A stretch of 22,289 bases of DNA from a virus: the IMG/VR virus record IMGVR_UViG_3300006100_001101, positions 1 through 22,289 of that record. One strand, given 5' to 3'. Made by a program: the position numbers and the translations under genes. The notes beneath the pieces were generated by a model, which ran no database searches, had not been told where the DNA came from, and worked only from the letters and a program-made list of their open reading frames with translations. The first letter of the stretch is position 1. The number at the start of each line of letters is the position of its first letter. Positions 1 to 14,283 of the stretch are shown here, piece after piece.

Positions 1-378
1 TTCTGAATCATTCGGAAAAGCTGTTGCATCAGGCGCTGGAGCATATCTGCCCTCCATAATTTCGTTAAAGTACATTTTAGCAAGGCGACGTGCTGTGCCT
101 TGACTATTTGGATCTGTTTCGCGATCGATAAGTAGCGTATCTAATACTTGCTCAAATGCCGCTGTTGCTTCATTGATTAATTGTTCTTTGTGATCATCGG
201 TAACATATTCGCTGATGTTATCTCCGGCCCAAAAGCGTTTACCTTCACGCCGCATTGTAAAGCGAATAACATCTGCTAAGTTTGCTTCTTTGTATCCGCC
301 GTCGCCGGCCATTGCGTCTAGTGCTGTTGATTTGAGATCTGCTATTTTTTGTTCTTCTGGTGATGCATATTTAGGCAT
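1..378 (-). CDS. folE: GTP cyclohydrolase I (FolE), N-terminal 126 residues, cut by window edge
   Basis: This frame is open from an ATG at 378 to the window edge with no stop, so the C-terminal half, with the zinc and catalytic residues, lies outside. GTP cyclohydrolase I opens GTP to dihydroneopterin triphosphate, the first step of both folate and 7-deazaguanine (preQ0) synthesis. The diagnostic part is residues 80-122: a helix followed by TDPNSQGTARRLAKMYFNEI and a GRY element. It aligns with the family's 'ETPxRxAKMYxxEIFxG' segment. The first 75 residues form an extension that includes a FTMRREGKRFWAGDNI stretch, which I recall from phage-type FolE proteins. A GGAG Shine-Dalgarno lies six bases before the ATG, and a promoter candidate lies upstream. 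In a phage that also carries QueD-like and TGT-like genes, a deazaguanine role is more likely than folate supply. Confidence 0.82.
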   Translation of the reverse strand, partial: MPKYASPEEQKIADLKSTALDAMAGDGGYKEANLADVIRFTMRREGKRFWAGDNISEYVTDDHKEQLINEATAAFEQVLDTLLIDRETDPNSQGTARRLAKMYFNEIMEGRYAPAPDATAFPNDSE

Positions 379-417
379 TAAATTCTCCGAGTTAGTGTCG
401 TGGATGACTTTGTTGAT

Positions 418-446
418 ATTGTATAGTATTCAGACCGTGAAGTCAA
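418..446 (-). promoter_or_regulatory. sigma70-type promoter candidate for folE
   Basis: On the minus strand a TTGACT -35 box (441-446) is followed after exactly 17 bases by a TACAAT -10 box (418-423). The -35 box overlaps the last codons of the aminotransferase gene. The -10 box lies about 40 bases before the folE start, and a GGAG ribosome binding site is in the leader. Confidence 0.5.
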
Positions 447-1011
447 TTGTTCTCAGGTCCGGATACAGGATATATTTAGGTTTTTCGTCCACTAATGGTA
501 ATCTTTCTAGACCCAAACTGCAAGTTTCAAGTGTGGGACAATAGTGATATCCTTGTCGGAATTCCCGTTGATCTTGCCAAGGAACAATACGCAAGTCTCG
601 ACCATCACTACGCATACGGCTTAATATTTCGTACTCGTCAAAGTTGTCTAACAAGATGGCGCCAGCTTTGCCAATGCTGAGTGGTTTACCGTGCCCAAAA
701 CTCAAACATTGTATTTGTCCTGGACGATACATTCCACGTTCGAGTCTACGAGCACTATCCCATATGGTGGTATCATAAAACAAGTATTCGCCTGTCCAAT
801 CCTCGTCGGTCATTCGATATTTGATGTTTAATTGATTCAGCAGTTGTGGTATGCTCAGGTATGTACGTGCTGGAAGTTGACACCAACGAACACGGCGTAT
901 ACGAAAACACAATTCCAGTGCGTGTGTGCAGCTGTCGGTTAGGACCACATAAGGTGCTCCGGTATATTCGGCCAGTGCCGATTCAAATCTAAATAAGGTA
1001 TCAAAGCTCAT
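430..1011 (-). CDS. compact DegT/DnrJ/EryC1/StrS-type PLP aminotransferase
   Basis: At 193 residues this is about half the usual 370-400 of the sugar-aminotransferase family, which moves an amino group onto keto-sugars using PLP. Family landmarks appear in order. An N-terminal FExALAxYTGAPYVV segment is followed by the DSCTHALEL cofactor loop (about residues 26-34). WDSARRL stands for the usual 'EDaAqa' element (about 84-90). SFGHGKPLSIGKAGAI holds the likely PLP lysine, K109. GYHYCPTLETCSLGLERL (about 154-171) matches the 'GyNyRmtelqAAlg' segment. The C-terminal small domain is missing. Other phage-encoded members could be similarly compact, so decay is not certain. The gene diverges from the AMP-ligase-like gene, and its promoter candidate sits between them. 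It may work with the GalE, glycosyltransferase and SGNH genes in making or attaching a sugar. Confidence 0.72.
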   Translation of the reverse strand: MSFDTLFRFESALAEYTGAPYVVLTDSCTHALELCFRIRRVRWCQLPARTYLSIPQLLNQLNIKYRMTDEDWTGEYLFYDTTIWDSARRLERGMYRPGQIQCLSFGHGKPLSIGKAGAILLDNFDEYEILSRMRSDGRDLRIVPWQDQREFRQGYHYCPTLETCSLGLERLPLVDEKPKYILYPDLRTIDFTV

Positions 1012-1039
1012 AAAATCAAATCCGTAGTAGTAGAATCAT

Positions 1040-1068
1040 ATTATAAGTTAAATAAGCGTGTAAATCAA
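1040..1068 (-). promoter_or_regulatory. sigma70-type promoter candidate for the aminotransferase gene
   Basis: The minus strand has TTGATT (1063-1068), a 17-base spacer and a perfect TATAAT (1040-1045). The -10 box ends about 28 bases before the aminotransferase start. This is the only sizeable gap between the two divergent genes. On the plus strand I see no comparable -35/-10 pair. Confidence 0.55.
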
Positions 1069-1083
1069 ATATTTTTTCACCAT

Positions 1084-2169
1084 ATGAAACGTGCCGCCAT
1101 TTGTGTTCCCAATCCCTGGGAAGTGATCCCTCAGTATGAAAAAGACTATAGTATAATGGTATTGAATCCTACGGCCACGCCCGAGCGAAATCGGTATTTG
1201 TTGGATAACAGTGATTGGAGTCTATTGGTCACGGCCGACAATGTCACCGAACGCGATGGCGGCAATTATCCCAATGAACGTGCATTTTGGTACACATCGG
1301 GCACCACCGGCGACAGTAAATTTTACGGATTCACTCACGATCAAATCAATCACGTGGCACGTCAAATGATTGCAGATTATGCAATCACAGCCAACGACAG
1401 ATATGTCAGCATAATGGGCCTGCATCACGCCCACGGACAAATGCTGTACTGGGTATCCAAACTGGTTGATATGGAAACACATTTTTTACCCATCAATCGA
1501 ATAGCATCAATGCACACGTATCATCCCACTTTTATAACAGCTATTCCTGACATATTGCGAACACTGAGCAAACAAAGTTTTGACAGTTTGCGTTTTGTGC
1601 GTAGTGCCAGTACAGCACTATACAATCCTTTGTACGAAAATTTAATCAAGGCATTTGGTGTACCGGTAATTGAAGCATTTGGTATGACTGAAAGCTGCAG
1701 CCATTGTTTTACCAATCCCTTGTACGGCGAACAACGTATGGGTACTATTGGACAAGTATCAGGTATTGAAGCCAAAATAGAAGGCGAACGTTTGATGATA
1801 CGTGGTCCGGCTGTATGCAACAGCGGTTGGGTTGACACCGGTGATCTAGCAACAGTAGATGAGGATGGCTATTACAGTATCTTGGGACGAGCCCGAGACC
1901 GAATCAATGTGCGTGGATTCAAACTGGATCCCATCAGCTTAGAGCAACAAGCATCTCGTGCCTTGCCATTGCTGGACGATATTGCTGTTTTTGGAACTGA
2001 CTCAGTCAAATGCGTGTATGTGGGACCATATGCTGTGAGCCAAGTTGGTGATTTTTTCAAAAGCCTGGGTTCTTACTGCTATCCTTCACGAGTTGAACAA
2101 CTGGAACGCATACCAGTCAATGCATCGGGCAAGATCTCAAGAACTATGTTAGATCAACTATTCGCTTAG
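1084..2169 (+). CDS. AMP-dependent ligase (acyl/aryl-CoA synthetase-like adenylating enzyme), short N-terminus
   Basis: This is the only plus-strand gene recognised in the window. It belongs to the ANL adenylating family, which activates a carboxylate as an acyl-AMP. The P-loop-like A3 motif SGTTGDSK is at residues 72-79, the A5 motif GMTES at about 200-204, the A7 aspartate in DTGDL near 251, the A8 element with RINVRGFKLDP just after it, and the A10 lysine in GKISR at about 350. It is 361 residues against roughly 500-550 for the family. The loss is at the N-terminus, since the first residues already match the 'PLNPxxxPERxxYxLxDS' stretch before A3. The catalytic core looks intact. The substrate cannot be read. 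No clear Shine-Dalgarno precedes the ATG, which is unusual here. The 3' end overlaps that of the convergent DUF6165-like gene by 12 bases. Confidence 0.82.
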   Translation: MKRAAICVPNPWEVIPQYEKDYSIMVLNPTATPERNRYLLDNSDWSLLVTADNVTERDGGNYPNERAFWYTSGTTGDSKFYGFTHDQINHVARQMIADYAITANDRYVSIMGLHHAHGQMLYWVSKLVDMETHFLPINRIASMHTYHPTFITAIPDILRTLSKQSFDSLRFVRSASTALYNPLYENLIKAFGVPVIEAFGMTESCSHCFTNPLYGEQRMGTIGQVSGIEAKIEGERLMIRGPAVCNSGWVDTGDLATVDEDGYYSILGRARDRINVRGFKLDPISLEQQASRALPLLDDIAVFGTDSVKCVYVGPYAVSQVGDFFKSLGSYCYPSRVEQLERIPVNASGKISRTMLDQLFA

Positions 2170-2520
2170 ATGATCTTGTTTGATTTCTCTAACCGAGCAC
2201 TTTAACTTTTCAGCCATTGCATTTTTGAGCGCCACACGTTTGTTGTTGTGATCACGGATGGCTATAGCACGTCGGCCAATTTCTTCTAGGCTCAATTCAT
2301 CTTCGCGTCCTGTTTTGAGTAAGGCTTCTAACTCCCAGATCTCATTGTGAATAGTTTTGAGTGCTTCGTACTCATCTACTATCAAATCCAAATCAATTTT
2401 GAGTGCTTGATTCATATACCATACCAGTTCGGCCTCGTTGGCACCGTTGGTACGCTTTGATTTGACCTCGGCAATGGCCAATCGGTCTACCAGTTCAATA
2501 ATGGGGAATACAATGTTCAT
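2158..2520 (-). CDS. DUF6165-like protein of unknown function
   Basis: This 120-residue, mostly helical, charged protein resembles the DUF6165 family from memory. The N-terminal pattern is [E]LVDRLAIAEVKSKR, followed by a middle helix with NEIWELEALL and a C-terminal stretch of the type 'aRxixxxNxxRvaLKxxi'. No biochemical role is known to me. In bacteria such proteins tend to lie near surface-polysaccharide genes, which fits the aminotransferase, GalE and AMP-ligase neighbours. Its ATG overlaps the stop of the upstream radical SAM gene (ATGA), so the two are probably translated together. Confidence 0.55.
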   Translation of the reverse strand: MNIVFPIIELVDRLAIAEVKSKRTNGANEAELVWYMNQALKIDLDLIVDEYEALKTIHNEIWELEALLKTGREDELSLEEIGRRAIAIRDHNNKRVALKNAMAEKLKCSVREIKQDHLSE

Positions 2521-3545
2521 AGGTAAAGTGTTTCTATATCTTTGGGGTTATTTAAAATATTTTGTATCTTGATATTGCTGATATTGGGTCTGCACGGAGC
2601 ACAAAATTCCACACGTGTGCGATTGTATATGTCATAGTGACGTTCGCCTTGCCAATCATCTCGGAAGTCACCTGAATCCCAATTGGTCAATTCAAACTGT
2701 GGGTTACCTTTGCCTTCACAACAGATGTAGATTTTGCCATCAGCACAAAATACCGGAAAGTGAAACATTTGATGACACTTTTTGTAGTTACGTGGCAGGG
2801 TTTTGTTTTGATTGGCCCAGTAAGGTAATCGATACTGTTGGCTGTAGCGTTCTAGTCTAGCAATGGTCTCTTCGGTGATAGGGTGAGCAACACCATCAAC
2901 AATAACTGGACGAAAATACAACATACGTCCACCCAACTTGGCAACCAAACCAAACAGGTCGTTCATAGCGGCATTGTTGTCGTTCAACGGGTTAATTAAA
3001 CATTTAAAATCCACGTTGACACCAGCTTCAATTAAGCCACGTGCATTGTCACACACTTTTGTAAATAGACTTTCTCTAGTCAAACTGCGGCGTATTTCTT
3101 CATAGAGATCTTGACTGCCAGCATCGATATCAATACCAATCCAGGCCAGTTTACGCAGTTTGTCCACACTGATGGTGTCTAACAAACGATCCAGATTTGA
3201 TCCATTGGTGGTAATACTGCCCAGGAATCCTAGATCTATGGTGTGTTCAATTACTTTTTCGTAGTTGACTAGTACAGTGGGTTCTCCACCGCCCGGGTAG
3301 GTAATGGTATGAGTGGTACCGTAACTGTTGGGTGTATGGCTGCGCCAAGAGGCCAACTTGTCCAACAACTCGATATATTCTGTGTATTTTTTCTGTACAG
3401 GTTTTTCGGCTCTGAAATCAGCACTATTACAGTAGTAACAATCTTGGTTACATACGTTGGTTAAATCTATATCAACCTGTGCGGGTAATAATTTTTTGGT
3501 GTCTTGATTGCTCATCCAGTGGACGAGTTCTGCATATTGATACAT
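2517..3545 (-). CDS. radical SAM protein with C-terminal SPASM/twitch-like Cys region
   Basis: The radical SAM CxxxCxxC motif is clear as CNQDCYYC (C32, C36, C39), which binds the 4Fe-4S cluster that splits S-adenosylmethionine. The GGE-type element follows as YPGGGEP (about residue 84), then TTNGSN. The C-terminal part has further cysteines in FCADGKIYICCEGKGNP and FCAPCRP (about 268-315), which suggests an auxiliary Fe-S cluster as in SPASM or twitch proteins. At 342 residues it is far longer than QueE (about 210) and not a QueE candidate. Substrate unknown. It is followed with overlap by the DUF6165-like gene and lies 16 bases after galE, with an imperfect palindrome at the junction. Confidence 0.85.
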   Translation of the reverse strand: MYQYAELVHWMSNQDTKKLLPAQVDIDLTNVCNQDCYYCNSADFRAEKPVQKKYTEYIELLDKLASWRSHTPNSYGTTHTITYPGGGEPTVLVNYEKVIEHTIDLGFLGSITTNGSNLDRLLDTISVDKLRKLAWIGIDIDAGSQDLYEEIRRSLTRESLFTKVCDNARGLIEAGVNVDFKCLINPLNDNNAAMNDLFGLVAKLGGRMLYFRPVIVDGVAHPITEETIARLERYSQQYRLPYWANQNKTLPRNYKKCHQMFHFPVFCADGKIYICCEGKGNPQFELTNWDSGDFRDDWQGERHYDIYNRTRVEFCAPCRPNISNIKIQNILNNPKDIETLYL

Positions 3546-3552
3546 TAAAGGC

Positions 3553-3572
3553 CTCGGGAGTCTAGACTCGAG
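3553..3572. repeat. imperfect palindrome at the galE / radical SAM junction
   Basis: The 20-base stretch CTCGGGAGTCTAGACTCGAG has a perfect 12-base palindromic core (GAGTCTAGACTC) with flanking CTC/GAG arms. It overlaps the galE stop codon and ends eight bases before the next ATG, so an mRNA hairpin there could affect translation of the radical SAM gene. It could equally be a protein-binding site. Confidence 0.35.
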
Positions 3573-4530
3573 TATACCACTTATAAGCTGAGTCTATGAT
3601 AGTATTTATATCACTGTATTCCGGGCGCCAACCTAATTCAACACGAGCCAGTTCAGCATCGGCTATCAAACGTGCAGGATCGCCCATACGCTTGGGTCCA
3701 TAGTTGACAAAAGGTAATCCATATTTGTCAAACACATAGTCAACAATTTGCTTGTTGCTGACACCGGTATTGGTACCCAAATTATAGCGTCTATGTACAG
3801 AGCCAGCATAGCCAAAGTGTTGATTGGCAGCCAACACGTGTGCCTGGGCAATGTCCCATACGTGTACATAATCGCGAATGCAAGTGCCATCTGGAGTGTC
3901 AAAATCATCGCCGTTGATGCTGAAAGCACGACCCGCAATACTGGCCTCCAACACACGAGCCACAATGTGAGTGGCCTCGGGTTCTTGGCCTAGATCTGAG
4001 TTGACGGGTTCAGCACCGGCTGCATTAAAATATCTAAAAACTGTGCTGGGCAGGGCATAGGCACCCCAGAAGTCTCGGAGTATTGTTTCGGTCATTGCTT
4101 TGGTATTGCCGTAGGGACTGATAGGTTGTATGCGAGCAGTTTCTCGGATGGGCAACAGATCTGGTTCACCGTATACCGATGCACTTGAGCTAAACATGAT
4201 TACCGGTTTCTTTTTGAAATCTTTGACCCAGTTCAACAAGCGTACAGTTTTTGCAATATTATTATTGTAGTATTCGCCAGGATCATCCATACTGGGACCA
4301 ACAAGGCTAGTACCAGCACAATGTACAACAACATCGGGATTGAAGTCGTAAATGGCAGCTAGACTGGCATCATCAGCAAAATCGCCGATGTGATATCCGT
4401 CAATGTCTTTCAAGGTATGTAGACGCAGTACACGATCAATGATCAATACTGTGTTGCCCTGTTGCTTGAATGCTCGTGCCACGTGGCTACCAATATAGCC
4501 ACACCCGCCTGTTACTATTATTCGTTTCAT
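3562..4530 (-). CDS. galE: UDP-glucose 4-epimerase-like NAD-dependent sugar epimerase
   Basis: This extended short-chain dehydrogenase interconverts UDP-glucose and UDP-galactose or related UDP-sugars. The NAD-binding motif GGCGYIGSH is at residues 8-16. The catalytic set is SSSASVYGE (about 114-122) plus Y140 and K144 in SPYGNTK. The family segments YFNAAGA and CIRDYVHVWDIAQAH are also present. Length is 322 residues against about 338 for GalE, so it is essentially complete. It starts at an ATG overlapping the stop of the SGNH hydrolase gene. With the glycosyltransferase and DegT-type aminotransferase it points to synthesis of an activated sugar for DNA, virion or host-surface modification. 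The exact sugar cannot be told from sequence, and a related epimerase or dehydratase activity is possible. Confidence 0.88.
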   Translation of the reverse strand: MKRIIVTGGCGYIGSHVARAFKQQGNTVLIIDRVLRLHTLKDIDGYHIGDFADDASLAAIYDFNPDVVVHCAGTSLVGPSMDDPGEYYNNNIAKTVRLLNWVKDFKKKPVIMFSSSASVYGEPDLLPIRETARIQPISPYGNTKAMTETILRDFWGAYALPSTVFRYFNAAGAEPVNSDLGQEPEATHIVARVLEASIAGRAFSINGDDFDTPDGTCIRDYVHVWDIAQAHVLAANQHFGYAGSVHRRYNLGTNTGVSNKQIVDYVFDKYGLPFVNYGPKRMGDPARLIADAELARVELGWRPEYSDINTIIDSAYKWYTRV

Positions 4531-5222
4531 GTGTAATTTTTTTCTTTCAGGAACGGGAGAATTATTTCTTGGGTGAATTTTTTATTTTGTTCGTTATTGG
4601 GATGATACTGGTCTGGTCCAACATAAGGTATACCAGATCGGTTGGCCCATTCGTACTGGCCGTCGATTGGTAAAAACTGCGTAAAATCAACTTGCCCGTA
4701 CAAATTTTTAATATCATCGTGATTTCTAAATCTAGCGGGCAACACGTAAGAATTAAAGGTTGTCATAAAGTAGCGTATATTGTGTAATTTTAAAAACCAT
4801 TGTACACGTAGTATATGCTCTAATGTGTAAATCATCGAGCCCACTTCGTGGTGAAAATTACCATAATACATTTTGCTGATGTCCGAAGACCAGTGGTGAT
4901 TTAATAGAATCCAACAGTTGTTTGTGCCCGGTCCCAACGATGATGGATTTTCTTTCCACCCGTCTCGTTTTATCACTTTGACATCTGGATTGTAAAAGTC
5001 ATGACGATCACTGCCGCTCCACATTACTCCCACTAGGATATCTTCGGCTTTGGTGGTCTTCAACAATTCACTTACACGATAAATGATTTTTCTGCTGATG
5101 AGACCGTTACCTGAACTCAGCAGTCCGGTGTTTATTACATCGGCATTTAACTCTCGGGCCAAGTGATATGGCCACTTGGTTTCCCCGTCGGTAAAACTAC
5201 ATCCGCCAGCGACCACAATCAT
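4527..5222 (-). CDS. SGNH/GDSL-type hydrolase-like protein (first copy)
   Basis: This 231-residue protein fits the SGNH fold. Block I is GGCSFTDG with the likely catalytic serine at residue 9. A glycine in the NTGLLSSGNG segment and its asparagine (N39) fit the next blocks. The C-terminus has DQYHPNNE, a D-x-x-H catalytic pair (about D204 and H207). SGNH enzymes are esterases, often removing acetyl groups from sugars. I chose the ATG at 5222 because it overlaps the upstream stop (ATGA), the usual arrangement here; an in-frame ATG at 5243 would add seven residues. The downstream galE gene also overlaps it. A second SGNH protein lies at 9432-10316. Confidence 0.68.
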   Translation of the reverse strand: MIVVAGGCSFTDGETKWPYHLARELNADVINTGLLSSGNGLISRKIIYRVSELLKTTKAEDILVGVMWSGSDRHDFYNPDVKVIKRDGWKENPSSLGPGTNNCWILLNHHWSSDISKMYYGNFHHEVGSMIYTLEHILRVQWFLKLHNIRYFMTTFNSYVLPARFRNHDDIKNLYGQVDFTQFLPIDGQYEWANRSGIPYVGPDQYHPNNEQNKKFTQEIILPFLKEKNYT

Positions 5223-5416
5223 TCGGGGGAACCTCCCGTACAACTGCCGCCATCAAACCACAGGCTTTGTGCCTGCCGTTGGTATTCGGCAAGTTCGTAG
5301 GCATCTCTTGCTTTTTGATAGGCCTCTTCACTTAATCCGTGCCAGCCGCAACAGTCTCCGGTTGGGCTACGACCGCATCCGCACGAACCAATTTTATCAT
5401 TGACTTTAATCTGCAT
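5219..5416 (-). CDS. small Cys-rich protein with a CDGSH-like metal-binding motif
   Basis: A GGAG lies six bases before the ATG at 5416, so I prefer this start (65 residues) over the in-frame GTG at 5431. The N-terminal half carries CGCGRSPTGDCCGWHGL, a C-x-C-x6-C-C-x2-H pattern. It resembles the CDGSH iron-sulfur motif (C-x-C then C-x-G-x-H) but with a shorter spacer. A helical stretch rich in Ala, Tyr and Gln follows, and a further Cys sits near the C-terminus. Iron or zinc binding is inference. The stop overlaps the SGNH start (ATGA). I do not know a function. Confidence 0.55.
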   Translation of the reverse strand: MQIKVNDKIGSCGCGRSPTGDCCGWHGLSEEAYQKARDAYELAEYQRQAQSLWFDGGSCTGGSPE

Positions 5417-5504
5417 TTTCATCTCCGGCACAATTTTTTACAAATTTAACAACAGCATAACCAAAAATAAAAATTGTAACAAACACAATTAGTCCGCAAA
5501 TCAT
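5406..5504 (-). CDS. 32-residue single-membrane-span peptide
   Basis: An ATG at 5504 overlaps the stop of the 66-residue gene (ATGA). It opens a 32-residue reading frame starting MICGLIVFVTIFIFGYAVV and ending in a short charged tail (KNCAGDENAD). The first 19 or so residues are strongly hydrophobic, so it should insert in the membrane. It slightly overlaps the start of the Cys-rich gene. Coupled position and composition support a real gene, but a peptide this short cannot be assigned a role. Confidence 0.45.
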   Translation of the reverse strand: MICGLIVFVTIFIFGYAVVKFVKNCAGDENAD

Positions 5505-5701
5505 TTTACTTGAACCTTTAATCCGCGCCATTGATCAATGTTGGCAGTTCCCCAGCCGTGTTTTTTACTCCACTCGGCACGATGTGGCCAAGGCCAAGCG
5601 TTGCTCATTACTTCGTATTCGCCTTCGTGAACTGGATCCAAATCAAATGGAAACCACTCAGTTTTTAATGCTTCGATATCTTCGGTAGTAAAGGTTGTCA
5701 T
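5501..5701 (-). CDS. small Trp-rich protein of unknown function
   Basis: This 66-residue protein is not recognised. It contains PVHEGEYEV (about residues 23-31), PHRAEWSKKHGWG and a final QWRGL. The order 'PVHxGxY … W … WxG' recurs in the neighbouring 371-residue protein, so the two appear to share a small beta-rich module. The start overlaps the stop of that neighbour (ATGA), and its own stop overlaps the membrane-peptide start, so translation is probably coupled. Confidence 0.6.
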   Translation of the reverse strand: MTTFTTEDIEALKTEWFPFDLDPVHEGEYEVMSNAWPWPHRAEWSKKHGWGTANIDQWRGLKVQVK

Positions 5702-6813
5702 TGGCGATGTTTCTCACGGTTAGCACGACCTTGTTTGGTATTGGGGTCGTAATCGATCCAGCTGAACTCTGTACCATTACACGCAGGACAGTGATCATCA
5801 CCTTCTGCGTCGGTTGTGCGATCTTCGCTCATACCAGTCCAGCCACAGGTTTTATTGTCGCACACAATATTTGGCGGCTCTGGCGGTTGGTTGTTCCAGT
5901 TGCTGGTATCCCAGTTGTAACCAGACCAAGTGTCAACACCGTTAATTATATTGGCTTTGCCGTAGTTGAACTCTACAAAATTTTCACCGTCCCAATACAA
6001 GCAACCGTATGTTGTACCAAAATTTGACCATACAGCATTGTACCAACCCACGTGTACCGGTTTGATTTTTTTAAATTTAAAGTCAACTGACTTTTCCCAA
6101 TCGCTTGGCACAGGACCTGACTCAGGTGTGTCCCAGTTATCTTCGGGGTCGTATGCTTCTTCGTCTCCACCCAACAACCATTTGTTTTCGCCCCATTTGC
6201 CTGTGGTGCTCAAGTCGTTGTTGTCAATGGATTCTCCATCATATTCCATTCCATTGCAAATGAGCCAACCGTCGGCATTGGCATAATTTAATTTTAATTT
6301 CTTGGGATCAAATGGTTCATTAAGATTAATTTCTCCGCCATAGCAAAGACCTTTTTCACCTTGGGCTCCCCAAAATGCCACTTCGCCGTCGGCAATTTGA
6401 TCAACGTAAAATTCTTCCCATTCATTGACTTCAACACCAGCGTCTTCTAATGCACCAATGGTCAGCACACATTCCCAAACCAGTTCGTTGTTCTCATCGT
6501 ATATCTGGATAGTATTACCGTCATCCATTGTGGCTCCACTGGCATGAATATAGTCGTCACACTCGTATGGACTTCCGGGAGGGAATGGTTGCAGGTCTTC
6601 TGGAACTTCTAATTCGTTATCCCAGTTGCTGGCATATTCGTCCAAATCAATATTGTTTTCTTTAAAATAGTTGTAGACTTTGCGATCAACTCGACCGCAA
6701 TAAACTTCTCCGCCGTATGCACCCAATTCAACACGATAGGTACGTGGTGTGAATTTGAGAACAGCGATCAGTTGTTCTGCTGTAATTTCTCTAGTTTTTG
6801 TTTGGTGTCCCAT
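5698..6813 (-). CDS. acidic protein of unknown function with C-terminal Zn-ribbon
   Basis: This 371-residue, strongly acidic, Trp- and Asp-rich protein is not recognised. The N-terminus (1-60) resembles a small folded domain with TPRTYRVELGAYGGEVYCGR. The middle is low in motifs. A PVHVGWYNAVW … YWDGENF … DTWSGYNW module lies at about 250-305. The C-terminus has CxxxxC at 318/323 and CPAC at 342/345, a likely zinc ribbon, followed by a basic tail (GRANREKHRQ). The start overlaps the coiled-coil gene by 46 bases. A later internal start is possible, but no better site is visible. Confidence 0.6.
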   Translation of the reverse strand: MGHQTKTREITAEQLIAVLKFTPRTYRVELGAYGGEVYCGRVDRKVYNYFKENNIDLDEYASNWDNELEVPEDLQPFPPGSPYECDDYIHASGATMDDGNTIQIYDENNELVWECVLTIGALEDAGVEVNEWEEFYVDQIADGEVAFWGAQGEKGLCYGGEINLNEPFDPKKLKLNYANADGWLICNGMEYDGESIDNNDLSTTGKWGENKWLLGGDEEAYDPEDNWDTPESGPVPSDWEKSVDFKFKKIKPVHVGWYNAVWSNFGTTYGCLYWDGENFVEFNYGKANIINGVDTWSGYNWDTSNWNNQPPEPPNIVCDNKTCGWTGMSEDRTTDAEGDDHCPACNGTEFSWIDYDPNTKQGRANREKHRQ

Positions 6814-7013
6814 AGTTCGCCTCTTAATCGTGTTTCTAAAAATCTATAATGTTGTACTTCCGACAGTAATGATTGATTTAAATTTTTTTGATACTCAAAT
6901 TCTGCACGTTCATCATCTGACAACTCAACCTGATTGATTATTTCCTTGGGTGCAGAAGTACGGCCGGCCAAAAAGCTAACAAATCCAACAACGCTATAAA
7001 GTATGATGTCCAT
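6768..7013 (-). CDS. small membrane-anchored coiled-coil protein
   Basis: This 81-residue protein has an N-terminal hydrophobic segment (IILYSVVGFVSFLAG, residues 3-17) and then a charged helix likely to form a coiled coil. The topology resembles a single-pass anchor with a cytoplasmic or periplasmic helix, as seen in phage lysis accessory (spanin-like) proteins, but no lysis gene lies nearby, so I make no functional call. It starts one base after the stop of the glycosyltransferase gene. Confidence 0.55.
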   Translation of the reverse strand: MDIILYSVVGFVSFLAGRTSAPKEIINQVELSDDERAEFEYQKNLNQSLLSEVQHYRFLETRLRGELWDTKQKLEKLQQNN

Positions 7014-7014
7014 T

Positions 7015-8211
7015 TTAGTATTTGCTTTCGTGTGTATGTTTACGATAGTCAGTACTCATACGTAACCATTGCTCGCCCGATCCTTCTAAGATGTCACAGA
7101 TACGATCTACAGTACCGTTGGTCCAATCCGATATACGTCCCTGCAATGGATGCGGATCGTTTAGCAGAGTTCGTAATTTTTCAATGGCATCATCTAACGA
7201 CCAAGGAACGTATAACCTTGTTGCGTCATTTGCAAAAGTTTCAGGGAAGCTACGATAAGCAGGATATAAAACATTCGATCCAAGCGTATCAGCTTCTGAT
7301 ACTGTGTTACTGACCCAGTCTTGTAAAGCGCAATTAAACAATACCCTAGTATCATTAAGCAAAGCATAGTAATCATTTTTTTCTAAATCCTCGTATACAG
7401 TCAGCAAACCACGTGCCTGTAGGTCACGTGTACGAGCCATATAGCTGTCGTTGTTGCTTTTTAGTTTGGCACCGCTAAAAATAGCAAACTCAACCCGCTG
7501 TTCGGGAGTGGACTTGCTCATTTCACTGCGTCGATTCCACTCTTCGATAAGATCCATAAAGAAGTCGGGTTGTTTTTCTTGATCCCAACGTGCGGCAAAT
7601 CCCACACGCAGGGTTCTTTCTTTGAATGGCTTTAGTGGACCTGGTACTCTTGCACGGACTTCATCTTTGCCGAACGCCAGTCCGGAGATGTTGTATATCG
7701 GGGCTTCCCAGCCAGCTATTTTCATGTGCATAGCCATTTCTTCATTTGATGCTAAAACAATATCAGCGAAACTATCCACCATTTTTTCATAAAGTCCCAT
7801 CCACTTCTGCATACCCCAGACGTGAACAAAATCATCGGGGTCAATACTTTGTGCAAGACAGCGAACAGCAATACGGGGACGGTGAGCAGGATCGATTTGA
7901 TCCATAATGTAAGGCAAGCTCTCAATACCGGGCTGGAACATATCTTCAAAGTAGATGACATCTTCATTGGTAACTTCTCCTTGTTTCATTTTACGAACCA
8001 AGTTCATCAGCTGGCTCATACCAAAGTAAGTACGGCCGTGTGCATCTAGCACTTGTCCGGTAACAATAGCTTGATCGTTGCTGAGTGTTTCACCTGGTAC
8101 TATTTCATAGTTGATACCGCGACGTTCAAACACAGCACGATTCCACTCTTGTAGTTGCAGAGTGTAGCGGGCTTTGTAGGGCTCCAAGCCCATATACCAT
8201 AATTTTCTCAT
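7015..8211 (-). CDS. GT-B-fold glycosyltransferase (GT4-like)
   Basis: This 398-residue protein has the two-domain layout of GT-B glycosyltransferases, which move a sugar from a nucleotide donor. The C-terminal domain opens with LRVGFAARWDQEKQPDFFMDLIEEW (about 200-225), like the 'xxvgRxxxeKg' start of the donor-binding domain. It ends with the segment VSNTVSEADTLGSNVLYP (about 305-322), close to the E-x7-E region of GT4 enzymes. The acceptor-side N-terminal half is phage-specific and includes EDVIYFEDMFQPGIESLPYI. It may glycosylate modified DNA bases, as T4-like phages do, or a virion or host-surface target. The start overlaps the stop of a 45-residue gene. Confidence 0.72.
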   Translation of the reverse strand: MRKLWYMGLEPYKARYTLQLQEWNRAVFERRGINYEIVPGETLSNDQAIVTGQVLDAHGRTYFGMSQLMNLVRKMKQGEVTNEDVIYFEDMFQPGIESLPYIMDQIDPAHRPRIAVRCLAQSIDPDDFVHVWGMQKWMGLYEKMVDSFADIVLASNEEMAMHMKIAGWEAPIYNISGLAFGKDEVRARVPGPLKPFKERTLRVGFAARWDQEKQPDFFMDLIEEWNRRSEMSKSTPEQRVEFAIFSGAKLKSNNDSYMARTRDLQARGLLTVYEDLEKNDYYALLNDTRVLFNCALQDWVSNTVSEADTLGSNVLYPAYRSFPETFANDATRLYVPWSLDDAIEKLRTLLNDPHPLQGRISDWTNGTVDRICDILEGSGEQWLRMSTDYRKHTHESKY

Positions 8212-8345
8212 TGTTGTACCTTGTCTAAGCTGTGAAAACTTTGGAACGGAATTTTGTATACCGAATAATGTAGTGCTTCGTTTATGGTATCAAAATATTT
8301 TACTGATGTCTGTCCAGTATTTTCGTAGTATTTTAATTTATACAT
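8208..8345 (-). CDS. 45-residue protein of unknown function
   Basis: A reading frame from ATG 8345 to TGA 8208 gives 45 residues beginning MYKLKYYENT and ending SLDKVQQ. The start overlaps the end of the 116-residue gene by eight bases, and the stop overlaps the glycosyltransferase ATG (ATGA), so it fills what would otherwise be a gap. The aromatic-rich, balanced composition, with INEALHYSVYK, looks like real protein. Function unknown. Confidence 0.55.
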   Translation of the reverse strand: MYKLKYYENTGQTSVKYFDTINEALHYSVYKIPFQSFHSLDKVQQ

Positions 8346-8688
8346 TTTTTTTGCGTTTTTTTCTAAACTCGTCCACATCGGCAACTGCTTGGTTCAAGGC
8401 TGATGCATAATTGTGAGCCTGTTGACGGGTCATAATAATACTGGCTTCGTATTCCACGTAGCCACGAGTCAACAACCGCCAAAGATGCGACCAGCGTGTT
8501 TGACTCCACCAATTGGTTTTTTGCTTGGTATAGGTGGTAACAGTGACACCAGCAGCATCACTTTCTACCCATACATTATGTTCGCAATCAGACCCACAAC
8601 AAGAACACGGTACGTTATAGCTCTTGGCATCGCCCCATTCGCCTTGTTTTAAAATGCCCTCAGCAGGCGCCTGTGGTGCTAATTTCAT
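8338..8688 (-). CDS. conserved phage protein with Cys/His metal-binding N-terminus
   Basis: This 116-residue protein has CSCCGSDCEHNVWVE near residues 28-42, a likely Zn site (C, C, C, H). A mixed strand region and the helix IIMTRQQAHNYASALNQAV follow, then a very basic tail (RKKRKKN). I recall similar small proteins in other phages but no assigned role. The start overlaps the stop of the 89-residue gene (ATGA). Confidence 0.6.
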   Translation of the reverse strand: MKLAPQAPAEGILKQGEWGDAKSYNVPCSCCGSDCEHNVWVESDAAGVTVTTYTKQKTNWWSQTRWSHLWRLLTRGYVEYEASIIMTRQQAHNYASALNQAVADVDEFRKKRKKNV

Positions 8689-8954
8689 TGATTATGTCTC
8701 GGTTTCCAATTGGTATCACGTGGTTTGAAGTCTTTACGATCACGCTTAGGAGTACGCCATTGGTCCCAAGGTTCGCGACCACGCAACATCTTCATATACT
8801 CACCATATGGTGTACGCTCGTTGTAAAGATTGCGTTCATCAAATGGATATCCGTAGTTACGACAAAACTCATGATAGTTTTCTAGATCTTCAAAGATTGT
8901 GGTCACTTCGGGTTTGAAACGAAGATACTTATTGAGCCATTCTGGTTTGGCCAT
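8685..8954 (-). CDS. small conserved phage protein of unknown function
   Basis: This 89-residue protein begins MAKPEWLNKYLRFKPEVTTI and holds a FEDLENYHEFCRNYGYPFDE helix. Its C-terminal third is basic and Trp-rich (DQWRTPKRDRKDFKPRDTNW). A strong AAGGAG ribosome binding site precedes the ATG. The pattern is familiar from T4-like phages as a hypothetical protein, and the basic tail might bind nucleic acid, which is only inference. Confidence 0.6.
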   Translation of the reverse strand: MAKPEWLNKYLRFKPEVTTIFEDLENYHEFCRNYGYPFDERNLYNERTPYGEYMKMLRGREPWDQWRTPKRDRKDFKPRDTNWKPRHNQ

Positions 8955-8965
8955 TTTACTACTCC

Positions 8966-9430
8966 TTAAATAACAATTGATTGACTTGGACGGGTGAGGT
9001 TATAAGCAATTGAGCATCCGTTCTCACCGTCCTCGGACACTTCAATTGTAACACAACGATTGGGATAACGTGCAGCAATTTGGACATACAAGTCATCCGC
9101 AATCATTTCGCAACTCTTGTAATTGAGTTCTAAAACTCGATTTTCATTATGGGGACCGGTCCCACTGTATAGGTTCTCGAGCCAGCGTTTGAACTGGATG
9201 AACTCGATGTCCCGGTCGTTATGGAACACATCGATTGACACCCGGAAATGAAACATATGGCGATGAGGACTGGCCAAAAACGATACATCATATTCATCTC
9301 CTGTTGCTAATTGTGGGTCTGTGGCTGCGGCCGGGTAGCAATGTACACCTTCCCGTTCAAAGGTGACCCAAATTTGTCGCTTGGCAGCGTCTTTGATTCG
9401 TTCTACAGTTGCTCTTTGTTCTTGATTCAT
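8966..9430 (-). CDS. QueD-like / 6-pyruvoyl-tetrahydropterin-synthase-like T-fold protein
   Basis: At 154 residues it is near the size of QueD, which converts dihydroneopterin triphosphate to 6-carboxy-tetrahydropterin, the second preQ0 step. The layout matches T-fold synthases: an N-terminal 'F…VHCYPAA' segment (H30), a second zinc-type histidine group PHRHMFHF (H56, H58, H61), DRDIEFIQFKRWLENL, then LNYKSCEMIADDLYVQIA, which stands for the usual 'NPTxExLAxxI' helix, and a final ECG-like VSEDGENG stretch. The usual catalytic Cys before the HxH is not in place (Ser/Ala there), so the activity may differ. It starts two bases after the SGNH stop. Together with FolE and the TGT-like protein it suggests a deazaguanine route. 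The family call is from motif order only. Confidence 0.55.
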   Translation of the reverse strand: MNQEQRATVERIKDAAKRQIWVTFEREGVHCYPAAATDPQLATGDEYDVSFLASPHRHMFHFRVSIDVFHNDRDIEFIQFKRWLENLYSGTGPHNENRVLELNYKSCEMIADDLYVQIAARYPNRCVTIEVSEDGENGCSIAYNLTRPSQSIVI

Positions 9431-9431
9431 A

Positions 9432-10316
9432 CTAGGCCTTGCTTGGTTGTAAAAAGGTTAAAATATAATCGGCCCAGACTTGGTGTCCGTTGCCGTTGGG
9501 GTGTTTGCTGGATCGTTTATTGTTCATTGCACTGGAATCTAACCACTCATTGACTCGAGTGGCCTTTTCAATTAAAGGTAATGCCCACGAGTTGTATGCT
9601 GTCTTAGACTTCACTGCTATTTCTCTATGTACGTTTTCGTTAATACTATCAAAAATCCAACCAGTTACCAAATTGGTTCTAACAGGATCTGCCAATCCCT
9701 GTGCCTGGGCCAAACACTCAATCCAGTTGCGTTCCAACAACACAGCACGATTCTGCAATCTATCAACAATACCGTTGTGCCATACAAAATTGTTGCCAAC
9801 AACCACAGTATATCTTGAATCCATCTTGGCGATACTATTGCAAATCGTGTCGCACCAGACCTGTTCTAGATCACTCAACAACGATTGATAAAACTCCGGT
9901 GTTTCTTCCAGTTCATCAAATCTAGACCGAGCAGAAAATTTATAATGTGCAGCCTGGTCAATATCTCTGCCATTTTCTGTTAGTGTTATTATAACATAAA
10001 TTTTCTTATAATCGCAACAGTCTAATTGCTCAACTATGCGATCTAAATGACTCAAAACATACGAGTTTGACCACGCACAGCACCCAATGTTCAACCAGTC
10101 AGCTGAGAGTTTTTGAGCAATCAATCCACCATAAATCATTGAATGGCGCAACTGCGGTGGGATACCGTCTCCGTAGGTCCAGCTGTCGCCCATGGTAATT
10201 ACTATGGCATCGTTGTCGTTGATTTTGGAATAATATTCGGTATTTGGATTGGGTCCTACTCCAAAAGCCTCTTGTCTCCAATTGACTAATGTTTCAGACC
10301 AGTTGCGGATTTTCAT
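9432..10316 (-). CDS. SGNH/GDSL-type hydrolase-like protein (second copy)
   Basis: This 294-residue protein has a block I motif GDSWTYGDG with the likely catalytic serine at about residue 45. The C-terminal catalytic element is KHPNGNGHQVWADYIL (histidines near 272 and 278), as in GDSL enzymes. Between them, CCAWSNSYVLSHLDRI holds a candidate block II/III region. It differs strongly from the first SGNH protein and is longer. It starts at an ATG overlapping the stop of the radical SAM gene (ATGA) and is followed closely by the QueD-like gene. Its substrate may be an acyl or acetyl ester on a sugar or modified base, which is inference. Confidence 0.68.
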   Translation of the reverse strand: MKIRNWSETLVNWRQEAFGVGPNPNTEYYSKINDNDAIVITMGDSWTYGDGIPPQLRHSMIYGGLIAQKLSADWLNIGCCAWSNSYVLSHLDRIVEQLDCCDYKKIYVIITLTENGRDIDQAAHYKFSARSRFDELEETPEFYQSLLSDLEQVWCDTICNSIAKMDSRYTVVVGNNFVWHNGIVDRLQNRAVLLERNWIECLAQAQGLADPVRTNLVTGWIFDSINENVHREIAVKSKTAYNSWALPLIEKATRVNEWLDSSAMNNKRSSKHPNGNGHQVWADYILTFLQPSKA

Positions 10317-11413
10317 ACCAGTTTGGTTAATAGATCAGGAAAGGTTGTAGTAAAATTTAAATTTCGTCTTTGGTCAATAGCAGTCAACGATTGTACAACA
10401 TTGCCACTGTTACGGTCAAATGGTTTGGCAAGAAACTCTCTGCAGTTTTGCAAACTGGTAGCAAATGTTGTTGGTGCTTGATAACTATTTAGATAGTCTC
10501 GAGTGCTCTGTAGATATTTTTCATTCAAATTTCTAGCGTCCAAGTATTTGGGATCAGTCAAGTAGTGTACAGCCACACGATTTTCGTCCATACCCAAATT
10601 GATCAGATATTGGCCAGTTTCAATGATGGTGGTGGCGTTTAACAAAAAATAATTCATTGTTATACCAATTTGATTGCTGGGCCATTCTGCTATCAATTGT
10701 TTTATGTTGGCTTCAAGTTCAGTCCATACGCCGGGATAGCGTATGTATTCAAATGCTGAGCCAGTGGCTTCCACACTGACTTCCCACTGTACATTTTTAA
10801 ATTTCTTTATTTTGCTGTAGATACCTGTTTGTAGATTTGACAGGTTTGTGGTTATGCGCACCAAGCAGTCGGGATTGACTGTGTACAGTCGGTCCAATAG
10901 TTCGCCGTTTTCTTTGATTATCAAAGGTTCGCCACCGGCCAAGTATACTTCTTTGAGTCCGGCCAGTTTATCGTAGGTGTAATCTTTTAATTGATCAAAT
11001 GCAGTACGGTCAGCATTGACACGTTGTCCCATTTCACTGGCCCATAGGCTACTGAAGTACGGTCCGCAATAAACACAAGCATAGTTACAGGTATTTGACC
11101 AACGTAGATCTAACTGTGTTAGCGTATGCGGACCTGTATAATCAATCGCAACGTCTTGGTGCAGTTTGAGTTGATATGCTCGGTTACTGAACTCGGGGTC
11201 AACTGTTTCGCGTTGCTGGCACAATCTGCAACTGCTGGGCCATATGCCTGCTGTCAGTTCACGTCTTATTGTTTGATTGCGATTGTTGTTTAATATTTCA
11301 GCCACCGGCGATGTTTTTAAATTGCCAAGAGTTTCTTGACTCATTGCACAATTTCTAACAGATCCGTCGGGGTTGACAGCAATACCAGTCCACGGAAGCG
11401 GACACTCAATCAT
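10313..11413 (-). CDS. radical SAM protein with N-terminal Cys-rich (twitch-like) region
   Basis: The radical SAM motif CNYACVYC is at C109, C113 and C116, followed by a GGEPL element (AGGEPLIIKE, about 160-169) and the family's TTNLSN strand. An unusual feature is the N-terminus, where C4, C22 and the pair C62-x2-C65 in a 'PWTGIAVNPDGSVRNC … CRLC' layout look like a SPASM/twitch auxiliary-cluster region placed before the core domain. At 366 residues it is too long for QueE. Substrate unknown. ATGA overlap with the upstream 171-residue gene and with the downstream SGNH gene indicates one operon. Confidence 0.83.
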   Translation of the reverse strand: MIECPLPWTGIAVNPDGSVRNCAMSQETLGNLKTSPVAEILNNNRNQTIRRELTAGIWPSSCRLCQQRETVDPEFSNRAYQLKLHQDVAIDYTGPHTLTQLDLRWSNTCNYACVYCGPYFSSLWASEMGQRVNADRTAFDQLKDYTYDKLAGLKEVYLAGGEPLIIKENGELLDRLYTVNPDCLVRITTNLSNLQTGIYSKIKKFKNVQWEVSVEATGSAFEYIRYPGVWTELEANIKQLIAEWPSNQIGITMNYFLLNATTIIETGQYLINLGMDENRVAVHYLTDPKYLDARNLNEKYLQSTRDYLNSYQAPTTFATSLQNCREFLAKPFDRNSGNVVQSLTAIDQRRNLNFTTTFPDLLTKLV

Positions 11414-11925
11414 CTGATTATTTCGTCTTGTGTGTATTTGGACCAGTCAGTAAACTTGGTACGATCACGCAATTCGTGCAAGCTGTGACACCATACTCCA
11501 GGATTGGATTTTGCAAAATCTTTGTCATCAATTTTGATAGTGGCATTATATCCCAACAGTTGCACATAAGGCAATTTAACACTAATCATTGGAATAAAGT
11601 TGTTGTATTCTACTAGACCGCTTTCGGTTAAACCTTCGGCACAGCTGCTGTCTAAATCCAGTGTACACAAAATTCCTCTTTCTAGGCAATCACTGATCAT
11701 TGATTCCCATTCGCGCCAGTTGTCGGCGTCATCGGTGTCTAAATTTGGAAAACTTTGATTGGCACCAAAGTAGATATGTTCGCAATCGCTATTGTCGACT
11801 ATTTGTAACACAATTTGTGGATCCTGTAGACCCACTACAAATAGTGTACGCAATCCAAATGCCGGAGTGTGTTCTACTTCTTTTCCAATAAAGAAATTGA
11901 CTTGATCGTGTCCTGCTCTATTCAT
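11410..11925 (-). CDS. conserved phage protein of unknown function, partner of the radical SAM gene
   Basis: This 171-residue protein has no motif I can tie to a function. It contains FFIGKEVEHTPAFGLRTLFV near the start, HIYFGANQSFPNLD in the middle and SNPGVWCHSLHELRDR at the end. I recall similar sequences in T4-like marine phages. Its stop overlaps the radical SAM start (ATGA), and that fixed pairing suggests a linked role, for example substrate delivery, but this is inference. Confidence 0.6.
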   Translation of the reverse strand: MNRAGHDQVNFFIGKEVEHTPAFGLRTLFVVGLQDPQIVLQIVDNSDCEHIYFGANQSFPNLDTDDADNWREWESMISDCLERGILCTLDLDSSCAEGLTESGLVEYNNFIPMISVKLPYVQLLGYNATIKIDDKDFAKSNPGVWCHSLHELRDRTKFTDWSKYTQDEIIR

Positions 11926-12107
11926 TATGCTTGCTCGTGTTGTGTTTTTAATTTGACAATTTCGTCTTTTAAATGCAGTCTCTGCTTTTTTAACACTTCC
12001 AAAGTGGCATCTTCAAATACCCCGGTACTTTCCATACCATCAATACGTTTGTCTAGTACTGCGTGGTCGTGTTCTAAATGTCGTAAACGATTTTCCCAAT
12101 GTTCCAT
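11925..12107 (-). CDS. YdcH/DUF465-like small coiled-coil protein
   Basis: This 60-residue protein is nearly all helix. It matches the YdcH (DUF465) pattern: 'LExxHxxLDxxIxxxE' early and 'EVLKKQRLHLKDEIVKLK' late, the latter close to the family's 'lKkxKLxLKDeI' signature. Family members are short coiled coils of unknown function. It sits directly after the TGT-like gene, with start and stop almost touching, so it is probably co-translated. Confidence 0.68.
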   Translation of the reverse strand: MEHWENRLRHLEHDHAVLDKRIDGMESTGVFEDATLEVLKKQRLHLKDEIVKLKTQHEQA

Positions 12108-13664
12108 TTATTCTCCCAAATGTTCAAGTTTAGATTCGTCAAATTCTTCTTCTGGTGCTTCTTCTACAGTTTCTCCACCTTCGACGTCAAACAGCTGATC
12201 AAACATAGCATTGCCGTTAAACGCTTTTTTACCTTTGAAACCGCGGGTACCAATAATCTCGGTCCAGTAGCCCAATGGCCCACCGTACATTTCAATAATT
12301 TCCATAGCGGTCTCTTTGTCGGGTGCAGCAAAAATAGCTTCTACAATGTCTTCAAAGTATTCACCACGTGGACCACTACAGCGCATCATTGCCGGATGTT
12401 CACCGGCGTCAAAGCGTCGATTGGCTTCTTGTACCGCAGTCAAGTGCATCCATACATTGTGTCCCATCAACAATGCGTAACTGAAACTATCCCAACTTGT
12501 TTTGCCTTCTTTGCCGTTCTTGTTGACATCACCTGGCTTGTAGTAGCAAATATCTTTCATCTTGAGCATATCTGAGATAGGGCTATTTTCCCAACGTGGA
12601 TAGATACCATCCGCTACTACACCATCTGACCATTTGCGTGTGTCTGTGGCATATTTCTTATCATCTGCACTAGGTGCCATACGATACGACCATTTGCCAT
12701 TGTCAGGGAAAACATTTTCAAAGTAGACCTGTCCATTGGCCGTGGCCAAGAATGGACTAGCACAGTCAAACGATATAGTAAATGCAGGATTAACATACTT
12801 GCGTACATTACGTTGAATAACAGTTAATAATACTGCCCACTCCAATTTGCTGGTACCCAAGAAGTGCATCCAATCGTGAACACCTTCTTGTAGTAAATTA
12901 TCATAACGTAGTGTAACCAATCGTCTAAGGATCAAGTGTACATCACACATATTCTGTCCACCCATAGCCCACCCATTAAAGTGTGTGTCGGGATATTTGA
13001 CTGGATCACAATACTCTTTCATAATTTCATACCAACGATCAGCATCAGGATGATTGGCGCCTTGTAAAACATTAAGCACTTTCATACCACCGTTACGAAC
13101 ACCCTTGCGATGTTTCATATAAAACTCGTTGTTGAATCGGGTAGCATCAACAGCTTCTTCTAGTGTACGAATTCCACATTTGGCTGATGCATTTTTATCG
13201 TGGATGACCCAAGTTGGAATATCTAATGTCATACCATAGTCAGCAATGCCGTCCAGCCACTTGACCACAGCTTCACGCCGTGCTTGGGCCTTCGGGCACC
13301 CTGAGTTAGCCTTCCAATCGCCTTCCCATAGTCCTTTGGCAATCTGGAATCCTCCAGAGTCGCCTAGCACTAGTGTGTTGGGATCACGATTACGGACCAT
13401 ATCCTCGCTCCAATCTTGCTTGGTAAGGTCCAGGTTGGCATGGCCGCCGGAGTAAAGCGACCACTTATATGGGAACAAGGCCTTCTGATCATTCAACCAG
13501 TTCAGCTGTTCCATATCTGTTAGGCCCTGTGGAAAACGCACAGGGTCTACATAAGGACCATTGACAGGATCACGTTGCTTGCCTATGAAGGTAGCGTAGA
13601 AACCCGAGATAGCTGGAAGAAACACAGCATAGTCATTTTGTTTTGCAGTTAAGTTGTCTTGCAT
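12108..13664 (-). CDS. queuine tRNA-ribosyltransferase-like protein (TGT/DpdA-like), candidate DNA deazaguanine transglycosylase
   Basis: TGT enzymes swap guanine for a 7-deazaguanine base; the DpdA branch does this in DNA. This 518-residue protein has the core signature DSGGFQ (D102, general acid/base position), VLQGANHPDADRWYEI (TGT 'VQGG' region), GWAMGGQ, HFLGTSKLEWAVL (TGT 'GVG…' region) and FDCASPFLATANGQVYF (about residue 298), which matches the 'FDCVxPTRxxRxG' nucleophile segment. The usual zinc set CxCxxC…H of bacterial TGT is not evident: only one Cys appears in the equivalent stretch (ICYY), although a HN pair follows. It is longer than bacterial TGT (about 375). Length and phage context favour a DpdA-like DNA enzyme over a tRNA enzyme. 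The C-terminal 30 residues are very acidic. It starts five bases after the sulfotransferase-like gene. Confidence 0.72.
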   Translation of the reverse strand: MQDNLTAKQNDYAVFLPAISGFYATFIGKQRDPVNGPYVDPVRFPQGLTDMEQLNWLNDQKALFPYKWSLYSGGHANLDLTKQDWSEDMVRNRDPNTLVLGDSGGFQIAKGLWEGDWKANSGCPKAQARREAVVKWLDGIADYGMTLDIPTWVIHDKNASAKCGIRTLEEAVDATRFNNEFYMKHRKGVRNGGMKVLNVLQGANHPDADRWYEIMKEYCDPVKYPDTHFNGWAMGGQNMCDVHLILRRLVTLRYDNLLQEGVHDWMHFLGTSKLEWAVLLTVIQRNVRKYVNPAFTISFDCASPFLATANGQVYFENVFPDNGKWSYRMAPSADDKKYATDTRKWSDGVVADGIYPRWENSPISDMLKMKDICYYKPGDVNKNGKEGKTSWDSFSYALLMGHNVWMHLTAVQEANRRFDAGEHPAMMRCSGPRGEYFEDIVEAIFAAPDKETAMEIIEMYGGPLGYWTEIIGTRGFKGKKAFNGNAMFDQLFDVEGGETVEEAPEEEFDESKLEHLGE

Positions 13665-13668
13665 ACAG

Positions 13669-14283
13669 TTATTTTACACTATCTATAAGGTCAAAGTCAC
13701 GTTTGTATCGCTCAATTATTTTATTCTTTAACTCAGGTTTTTTTTCTAGTCTGTTTTTCATAAATTGTATAATTTGCTTTTGATCGTAGTTATCTTCTGA
13801 TACATTGGCATCCACGTCCGCAACCGTCAATGACTGCCCGGTGTATGCCGAAATATCGTCAACAATGGTTTTTTGATTCAATACAAAATACTTTACCTGG
13901 CACGTGGCCGGCAACTGTGAAATATATTGCCATTGTGGTGTAGTATGATCGTCAAATACCAAATTATCAAAAATGAGATTTTCTGTCAACCAGTTATAAT
14001 CTGCAACAAAATGATCACTTCCGTATCCGTTGCTACAAATCCAACTTGACACGTAGGTGGCAAATCCAGATACCCAACGTTCTACAGGATCTCTCAATAC
14101 AACTATGGCTTCGGTAACTGGTGCATATTCATTGAAAACAAAGTGTCGCCACCCGTTACTAAACAGTATGTTACTGAGATAAGTACTGGCGTTCTTTGGA
14201 ATATTTAGATAAAATACATTCGAGGGCGAAAGAAATCCGCCCTTGGGTCGATACCCTCTTGATCTAAGATACTCCAACTCCAT
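13669..14283 (-). CDS. sulfotransferase-like protein (PAPS-binding fold)
   Basis: This 204-residue protein has the two PAPS contact signatures of sulfotransferases. The 5'-phosphosulfate-binding strand-loop is FYLNIPKNASTYL (K30 region), like 'xxhIPKtGgTsl'. The 3'-phosphate loop is VVLRDPVERWVSGF (R64 and S72). The rest, including an FVLNQK strand, fits a compact family-2-type enzyme that moves sulfate onto a hydroxyl, often on a sugar. It is shorter than most family members. It lies one base after the sliding clamp gene. With GalE, a glycosyltransferase and two SGNH proteins it may decorate a glycan. The acceptor is unknown. Confidence 0.72.
   Translation of the reverse strand: MELEYLRSRGYRPKGGFLSPSNVFYLNIPKNASTYLSNILFSNGWRHFVFNEYAPVTEAIVVLRDPVERWVSGFATYVSSWICSNGYGSDHFVADYNWLTENLIFDNLVFDDHTTPQWQYISQLPATCQVKYFVLNQKTIVDDISAYTGQSLTVADVDANVSEDNYDQKQIIQFMKNRLEKKPELKNKIIERYKRDFDLIDSVK

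Follow-up and report, generated by a model that had tools for sequence, protein, structure and literature searches.

A putative phage operon for 7-deazaguanine DNA modification without QueC, encoding a remote relative of DpdA2 and a glycosyltransferase

The IMG/VR virus record IMGVR_UViG_3300006100_001101 (22,289 bases from an uncultivated large phage; the whole record, which is a genome fragment, is referred to here as the window) encodes, all on the minus strand, the start of a FolE protein, a T-fold protein of 154 residues and a 518-residue protein that resembles tRNA-guanine transglycosylases (TGTs), which raises the question of whether this phage replaces guanine in its DNA by a 7-deazaguanine and, if so, at which intermediate the pathway ends. 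A sequence-only reading of the window had proposed a 7-deazaguanine DNA-modification route, with preQ0 as its implied end point. The DNA-modification part of this proposal is probably correct, in view of the TGT fold, the homology to DpdA2 and the FolE/QueD/QueE operon described below; the preQ0 end point was not borne out, and the product most likely derives from 7-carboxy-7-deazaguanine (CDG). We consider it likely that the locus serves a CDG-derived DNA modification that proceeds without QueC. Judged from its genes, the system would be a variant of phage 7-deazaguanine modification not described before, with a transglycosylase that lies outside the family libraries.

Single-sequence searches with the 518-residue protein against Pfam, PHROGs, NCBIfam and the PDB returned no match, nor did a sequence profile of its family when compared with the PDB; the canonical TGT domain (PF01702) was found neither in the protein's own record nor by hmmscan (0 matches; controls 14/14 positive). 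Since the sequence searches were empty, the TGT-like identity was resolved by structure prediction. An AlphaFold model, based on an alignment of 50 virus homologues, had a mean predicted local distance difference test score (pLDDT) of 79.7 and a predicted template modelling score (pTM) of 0.84. Foldseek placed tRNA-guanine transglycosylases at ranks 1-11 (best E 3.5e-7), and the 50 structural alignments listed by VIA were all with TGTs (50/50; Z about 18; best Z 18.5 over 308 residues, 5.2 A), i.e. the best matches were all inside the superfamily to which the DSGGFQ motif had pointed in the sequence-only reading. The residues DSGGFQ (102-107), D148, Q201-G202 and D300 are unvarying across 50 relatives; when mapped onto the TGT catalytic residues by motif, not by superposition, they comprise the catalytic set of the TGT fold (DSGG[FYL]Q, base-recognition Asp, QG, and nucleophile Asp). 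At the level of its modelled fold, the TIM barrel of TGTs, the protein is a true member of the TGT superfamily. Relatives are encoded in at least 600 IMG/VR stretches, far beyond chance, and three groups of named relatives were recovered by tblastn (the PA5oct group, Phosso, and Vibrio phage 2.275.O), in which DSGGFQ and the D300 position are also kept. A search of viral contigs with the Vibrio phage 2.275.O member of the family found no relatives. A sulfotransferase-like gene (window 13669-14283) adjoins the TGT gene.

Profile comparison related the window TGT family to DpdA2. The family matched an alignment of DpdA2 (nt-1 and relatives) with an hhalign E of 1.6e-7 (probability 94%) and ACP17 DpdA2 alone with an E of 2.4e-7; the profile match to nt-1 DpdA2 alone was weak and became stronger once the DpdA2 alignment was used. 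Comparison with the DpdA of phage 9g yielded an E of 0.056 at a probability of 1%, and the stretch aligned was an unrelated one. The DpdA2 model phrog_10773 matches nt-1, pf16, ACP17, X1 and BUCT-ZZ01 and detects neither the window protein nor its homologues in the 11 longer contigs described below; as profile homology to DpdA2 is thus combined with a model that is blind to the protein, it is referred to as a DpdA2-related TGT-superfamily member, not as DpdA2. On profile evidence it is a remote, divergent relative of phage DpdA2. A compact family of 259-290 residues, TGT-like by motif and annotated as hypothetical, was also observed near the T-fold gene in Cellulophaga phage phiST, Ahp1, D479 and MA9V-3.

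The pathway genes were surveyed in 26 records, comprising 11 longer contigs of the same phage group and 15 named phages. The start of FolE matches library models weakly (NF006824, E 4e-5; phrog_2197, E 3.5e-4) and shares 59% identity with a phage protein annotated as GTP cyclohydrolase, and the full-length FolE of the longer relatives exceeds the PF01227 cut-off, in agreement with the earlier assignment. FolE, QueD and QueE are present in all 11 longer contigs (QueE truncated by the contig end in one), with QueD and QueE no more than about 15 kb away from the TGT gene in long contigs; QueC over the cut-off was found in 0/11 of these contigs, which may be incomplete. The sequence-only reading had left QueE and QueC to be sought in the rest of the genome; QueE was thus recovered from relatives and QueC was not. 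Without QueC, the route from GTP stops at CDG as the pathway end point (PMC6884629). Of the 26 records, 22 encode a member of the T-fold family; the remaining four (Vibrio phage 2.275.O, nt-1, pf16 and 9g) are also the only ones that encode a full-length QueC. Among the named phages, the T-fold gene and full-length QueC are mutually exclusive (11 vs 4 of 15; p 7e-4, with phages that are not fully independent), and 10 of the 11 named phages with the T-fold gene are without any QueC.

The T-fold protein had been regarded as QueD-like. The closest solved structure to its AlphaFold model (pLDDT 87.6) is E. coli QueD (Foldseek E 5.6e-5; Z 11.7, 2.4 A over 111 residues), and the protein retains H30, H56 and H58 as zinc-type histidines and the anchoring Glu E133. 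The catalytic Cys of QueD is absent, all ten T-fold proteins in the comparison having Leu in the aligned column, and these proteins lack the Asp-His pair of QueD as well; hence, the 154-residue protein is QueD-like but not QueD, and the fold and the histidines of the earlier assignment stand without the QueD identity. The family gave no PTPS match in Pfam, and its best PTPS match in the PDB by sequence had an E of 0.35 only. Because the protein is not QueD and is found where full-length QueC is absent, it probably acts on CDG, and with a route that ends at CDG, CDG processing is its simplest role. The T-fold protein (phrog_17812) may be the CDG decarboxylase DpdL; Cui et al. 2023 reportedly linked CDG decarboxylation to the enzyme DpdL in phages of this kind. 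DpdL would be expected in 7-deazaguanine phages devoid of QueC, among them Cellulophaga phage phiST, which carries a homologous T-fold gene.

The TGT and T-fold genes are part of a conserved operon that also includes a glycosyltransferase (GT) gene, a galE gene and a gene for a conserved protein termed g18 (Table 1). In 116 loci with enough sequence beyond the TGT gene, the order TGT-g18-T-fold-GT-galE-FolE-QueD/QueE recurs, all on the same strand (GT in 116 loci, T-fold in 115, galE in 114, g18 in 109, FolE in 88). As these loci were collected with a single TGT query and a single GT query, and as all of the phages are related, the counts represent conservation, not independent association. 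Independent support for the association is provided by other lineages: the GT and T-fold genes share a cluster in five (PA5oct, ACP17, X1, BUCT-ZZ01 and Phosso), and among the 15 named phages, the GT is confined to these five, as is the combination of the T-fold gene with DpdA2 or the window TGT (p 3e-4). Homologues of g18 in named phages are confined to the PA5oct group and ACP17, all of which are TGT, GT and T-fold phages. A viral contig search with the ACP17 GT matched ACP17 itself only. The window GT alone is below the Pfam cut-offs, and a close homologue (BUCT-ZZ01) exceeds those of PF13692 and PF00534; the GT profile matches group 1 glycosyltransferases in the PDB (E 5.5e-5), and the GalE-like protein matches UDP-glucose 4-epimerases in the PDB (E 3e-65). 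From its gene context, the GT is strongly linked to the operon. These two sugar genes, the QueD and QueE genes that relatives encode beyond the stretch covered by the fragment, and the absence of QueC from the relatives go beyond the sequence-only reading. A second glycosyltransferase-like gene (447 residues) is located between FolE and DpdA2 in BUCT-ZZ01.

Table 1. Predicted operon genes and associated genes of the window, with positions in the window and the basis of each assignment
Feature	Position	Strand	Basis
FolE (GTP cyclohydrolase I), first 126 residues, truncated by contig end	1..378	-	library and homologue matches
Short DegT/DnrJ/EryC1 aminotransferase-like protein, 193 residues, possible sugar aminotransferase variant	430..1011	-	PF01041, E 1.2e-10; 54/116 loci
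GalE-like UDP-glucose 4-epimerase, predicted sugar-donor supply	3562..4530	-	PF01370; 114/116 loci
GT-B/GT4-like glycosyltransferase, putatively decorating the modified base	7015..8211	-	116/116 loci; family matches via homologue
Small conserved protein g14, between T-fold and GT	8685..8954	-	85/116 loci
T-fold protein, QueD paralogue, 154 residues, phrog_17812; predicted to act on CDG	8966..9430	-	phrog_17812, E 2e-34; fold model
Conserved protein g18, 171 residues, close to TGT gene	11410..11925	-	109/116 loci; no Pfam match
TGT-superfamily transglycosylase, DpdA-like, 518 residues	12108..13664	-	AF2 model; Foldseek/VIA; invariant motifs; remote profile match to DpdA2

In the reading that we favour, the window would hold one end, with the TGT gene, of a phage operon whose 7-deazaguanine pathway for DNA modification ends at CDG, not at preQ0. 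The phage-encoded FolE, QueD and QueE would convert GTP to CDG, the T-fold protein would act on CDG or a derivative, most likely by decarboxylation to 7-deazaguanine, and the TGT-fold enzyme would exchange guanine in DNA for the CDG-derived base; possibly, the GT-B glycosyltransferase, supplied by the GalE-type epimerase, would add a sugar to the modified base or a derivative of it. In this scheme, the folds, the set of genes, the lack of QueC in relatives and the conservation of the operon come from sequence analysis and structure prediction, and the substrates, the decarboxylation, the choice of DNA over tRNA as target and the sugar step are inferred. Taken alone, this sugar step is somewhat doubtful, and the combined proposal, i.e. 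that the DNA of these phages contains a glycosylated 7-deazaguanine, formed through insertion of a CDG-derived base and addition of a sugar by a GalE-fed GT-B enzyme, is put forward tentatively and with marginally less confidence. To our knowledge, and from a search of the open-licence literature, a sugar-bearing 7-deazaguanine in DNA would be the first.

Several observations weigh against a CDG-derived DNA modification with a sugar step. Records that come from one phage group are not independent, and the window itself is without QueD and QueE, which we attribute to the incompleteness of the record. In Vibrio phage D479, the T-fold gene is accompanied by a divergent QueC-like PP-loop protein (278-residue frame, D479 153300-154700), and the split between T-fold and QueC has a p of 4e-3 if this protein is counted as QueC. 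The 518-residue protein is without the CxCxxC zinc motif of tRNA TGTs, the sole invariant Cys after D300 in the alignment of its relatives being C373. Finally, plain 7-deazaguanine offers no obvious O or N at C7 as sugar acceptor, so that the sugar would reside on a derivative, or the T-fold protein would not be a simple decarboxylase, or the GT would have another target. A route to preQ0 (or dG+), completed by a host or undetected QueC, with the T-fold protein as a second QueD and preQ0 inserted by the TGT, would accommodate Vibrio phage 2.275.O, where the same TGT family occurs alongside QueC, a QueF-like protein and a YhhQ-like transporter, and the Q pathway is often host-encoded (PMC6884629); however, this route is improbable, given the longer relatives in which a separate phage QueD is present and QueC is not, and a T-fold protein that has lost the QueD residues and is almost confined to QueC-less records. 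Even less credible is a tRNA target for the TGT-fold enzyme: its fold does match tRNA TGTs, but neither PF01702 nor the NCBIfam TGT model matches the protein, the zinc motif is missing, its profile relation is to DpdA2, a DNA-modifying family, and no queuosine-specific gene was recognised within the window.

Insertion of CDG itself (dCDG), with the T-fold protein or the GT acting on the carboxylate instead of removing it, is unlikely, though it deserves more consideration than these two: the gene set stops at CDG, and the carboxylate would be a handle for the GT or another enzyme, as carboxyl-handle hypermodification is known in another phage system (PMC12783734). Against dCDG, neither a ligase nor a transferase that could carry out such a step was identified. 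Also, Cui et al. 2023 reportedly tied CDG decarboxylation to DpdL in such phages. A further alternative rivals the sugar step only, namely that GT, GalE and DegT serve some other, unconnected sugar pathway (glycosylation of surfaces, of proteins or of pyrimidines) and lie in the operon by chance, which is a serious possibility if somewhat short of an even chance. Much other cargo is encoded in the window (sulfotransferase, SGNH hydrolases, AMP-ligase), the cluster annotations of ACP17, X1 and BUCT-ZZ01 list neither a GalE nor a DegT gene, and PF00303 enzymes occur in some GT-bearing records; yet five divergent lineages have the GT in their T-fold/TGT clusters, the remaining 10 of the 15 named phages are without it, and no PF00303 hydroxymethylase is encoded in the complete ACP17, X1 and BUCT-ZZ01 genomes, so that a hydroxymethylated pyrimidine made by such an enzyme is an unlikely acceptor there.

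Other predicted genes of the window comprise two for radical SAM proteins (2517-3545 and 10313-11413), both tried as QueE candidates and rejected, as in the sequence-only reading, since other radical SAM models match them much better; they occur in few relatives and look like cargo. Among curated models, the former matches prokaryotic viperin best (E 1.5e-14, far under the cut-off with 53.8 vs 180 bits), and the latter is a SPASM/twitch radical SAM protein (NF033640 over cut-off) which, together with an SGNH-like gene (9432-10316), sits between g18 and the T-fold gene; both of these are rare in relatives. Near FolE, an AMP-binding (acyl/adenylate ligase) gene (1084-2169) is encoded on the opposite strand. 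A phrog_12062 protein (window 14285-15004), whose Phosso homologue is annotated as a sliding clamp, keeps its place next to the genes for DNA polymerase and the TGT in 81 loci, and a methyltransferase-domain protein (window 15054-16007; 77 loci) that is fast-evolving (about 25-56% identity) is encoded between the polymerase and the clamp-like gene. A ferritin-like (Dps-type) protein is predicted at window 21283-21717 (PF00210, E 1e-20).

The modification of phage DNA determines which host nucleases can attack it, and the operon group spans at least several hundred public virus contigs with a QueC-less gene set whose transglycosylase is invisible to standard family libraries. The same module is found in the cultured phages PA5oct, Paride, Callisto, ACP17 and BUCT-ZZ01, where it is largely unannotated save for names like QueE or 'glycosyltransferase', and the chemistry is therefore testable now. 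If the sugar step is true, it would combine on a single base two known strategies of phages, replacement by a deazaguanine and glycosylation of DNA, and the glycosylated base would occur in uncultivated phages of a very common group as well as in the cultured PA5oct/Paride and ACP17.

In comparison with known systems, the T-fold protein shares the T-fold, the zinc-type histidines and the anchoring Glu with QueD/PTPS (PF01242) and differs in the missing catalytic Cys and Asp-His pair, and its relatives encode a separate, true QueD. Cellulophaga phage phiST, unlike the window operon, has no GT in the survey of the 15 named phages. A precedent for a sugar on a 7-deazaguanine nucleoside is glycosylated queuosine of animal tRNA, formed by QTMAN/QTGAL (PMC12518689), in which, however, the sugar is on the queuosine cyclopentene in tRNA. 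The closest known system is that of DpdA2 (phrog_10773; Vibrio phage nt-1 YP_008125322), whose type phage nt-1 contains dPreQ0, dADG and dG+ in its DNA (PMC6884629). Both transglycosylases are encoded in large phages by genes beside FolE/QueD/QueE, and DSGGxQ, Asp-x-x-Pro, QG, H-x-LG and IS[FY]D occur in the same order in both. In contrast to DpdA2, the window TGT is larger (518 vs 424-464 residues) and escapes tblastn and phrog_10773, and the QueC partner is replaced by the T-fold protein and the GT in the window-type operon.

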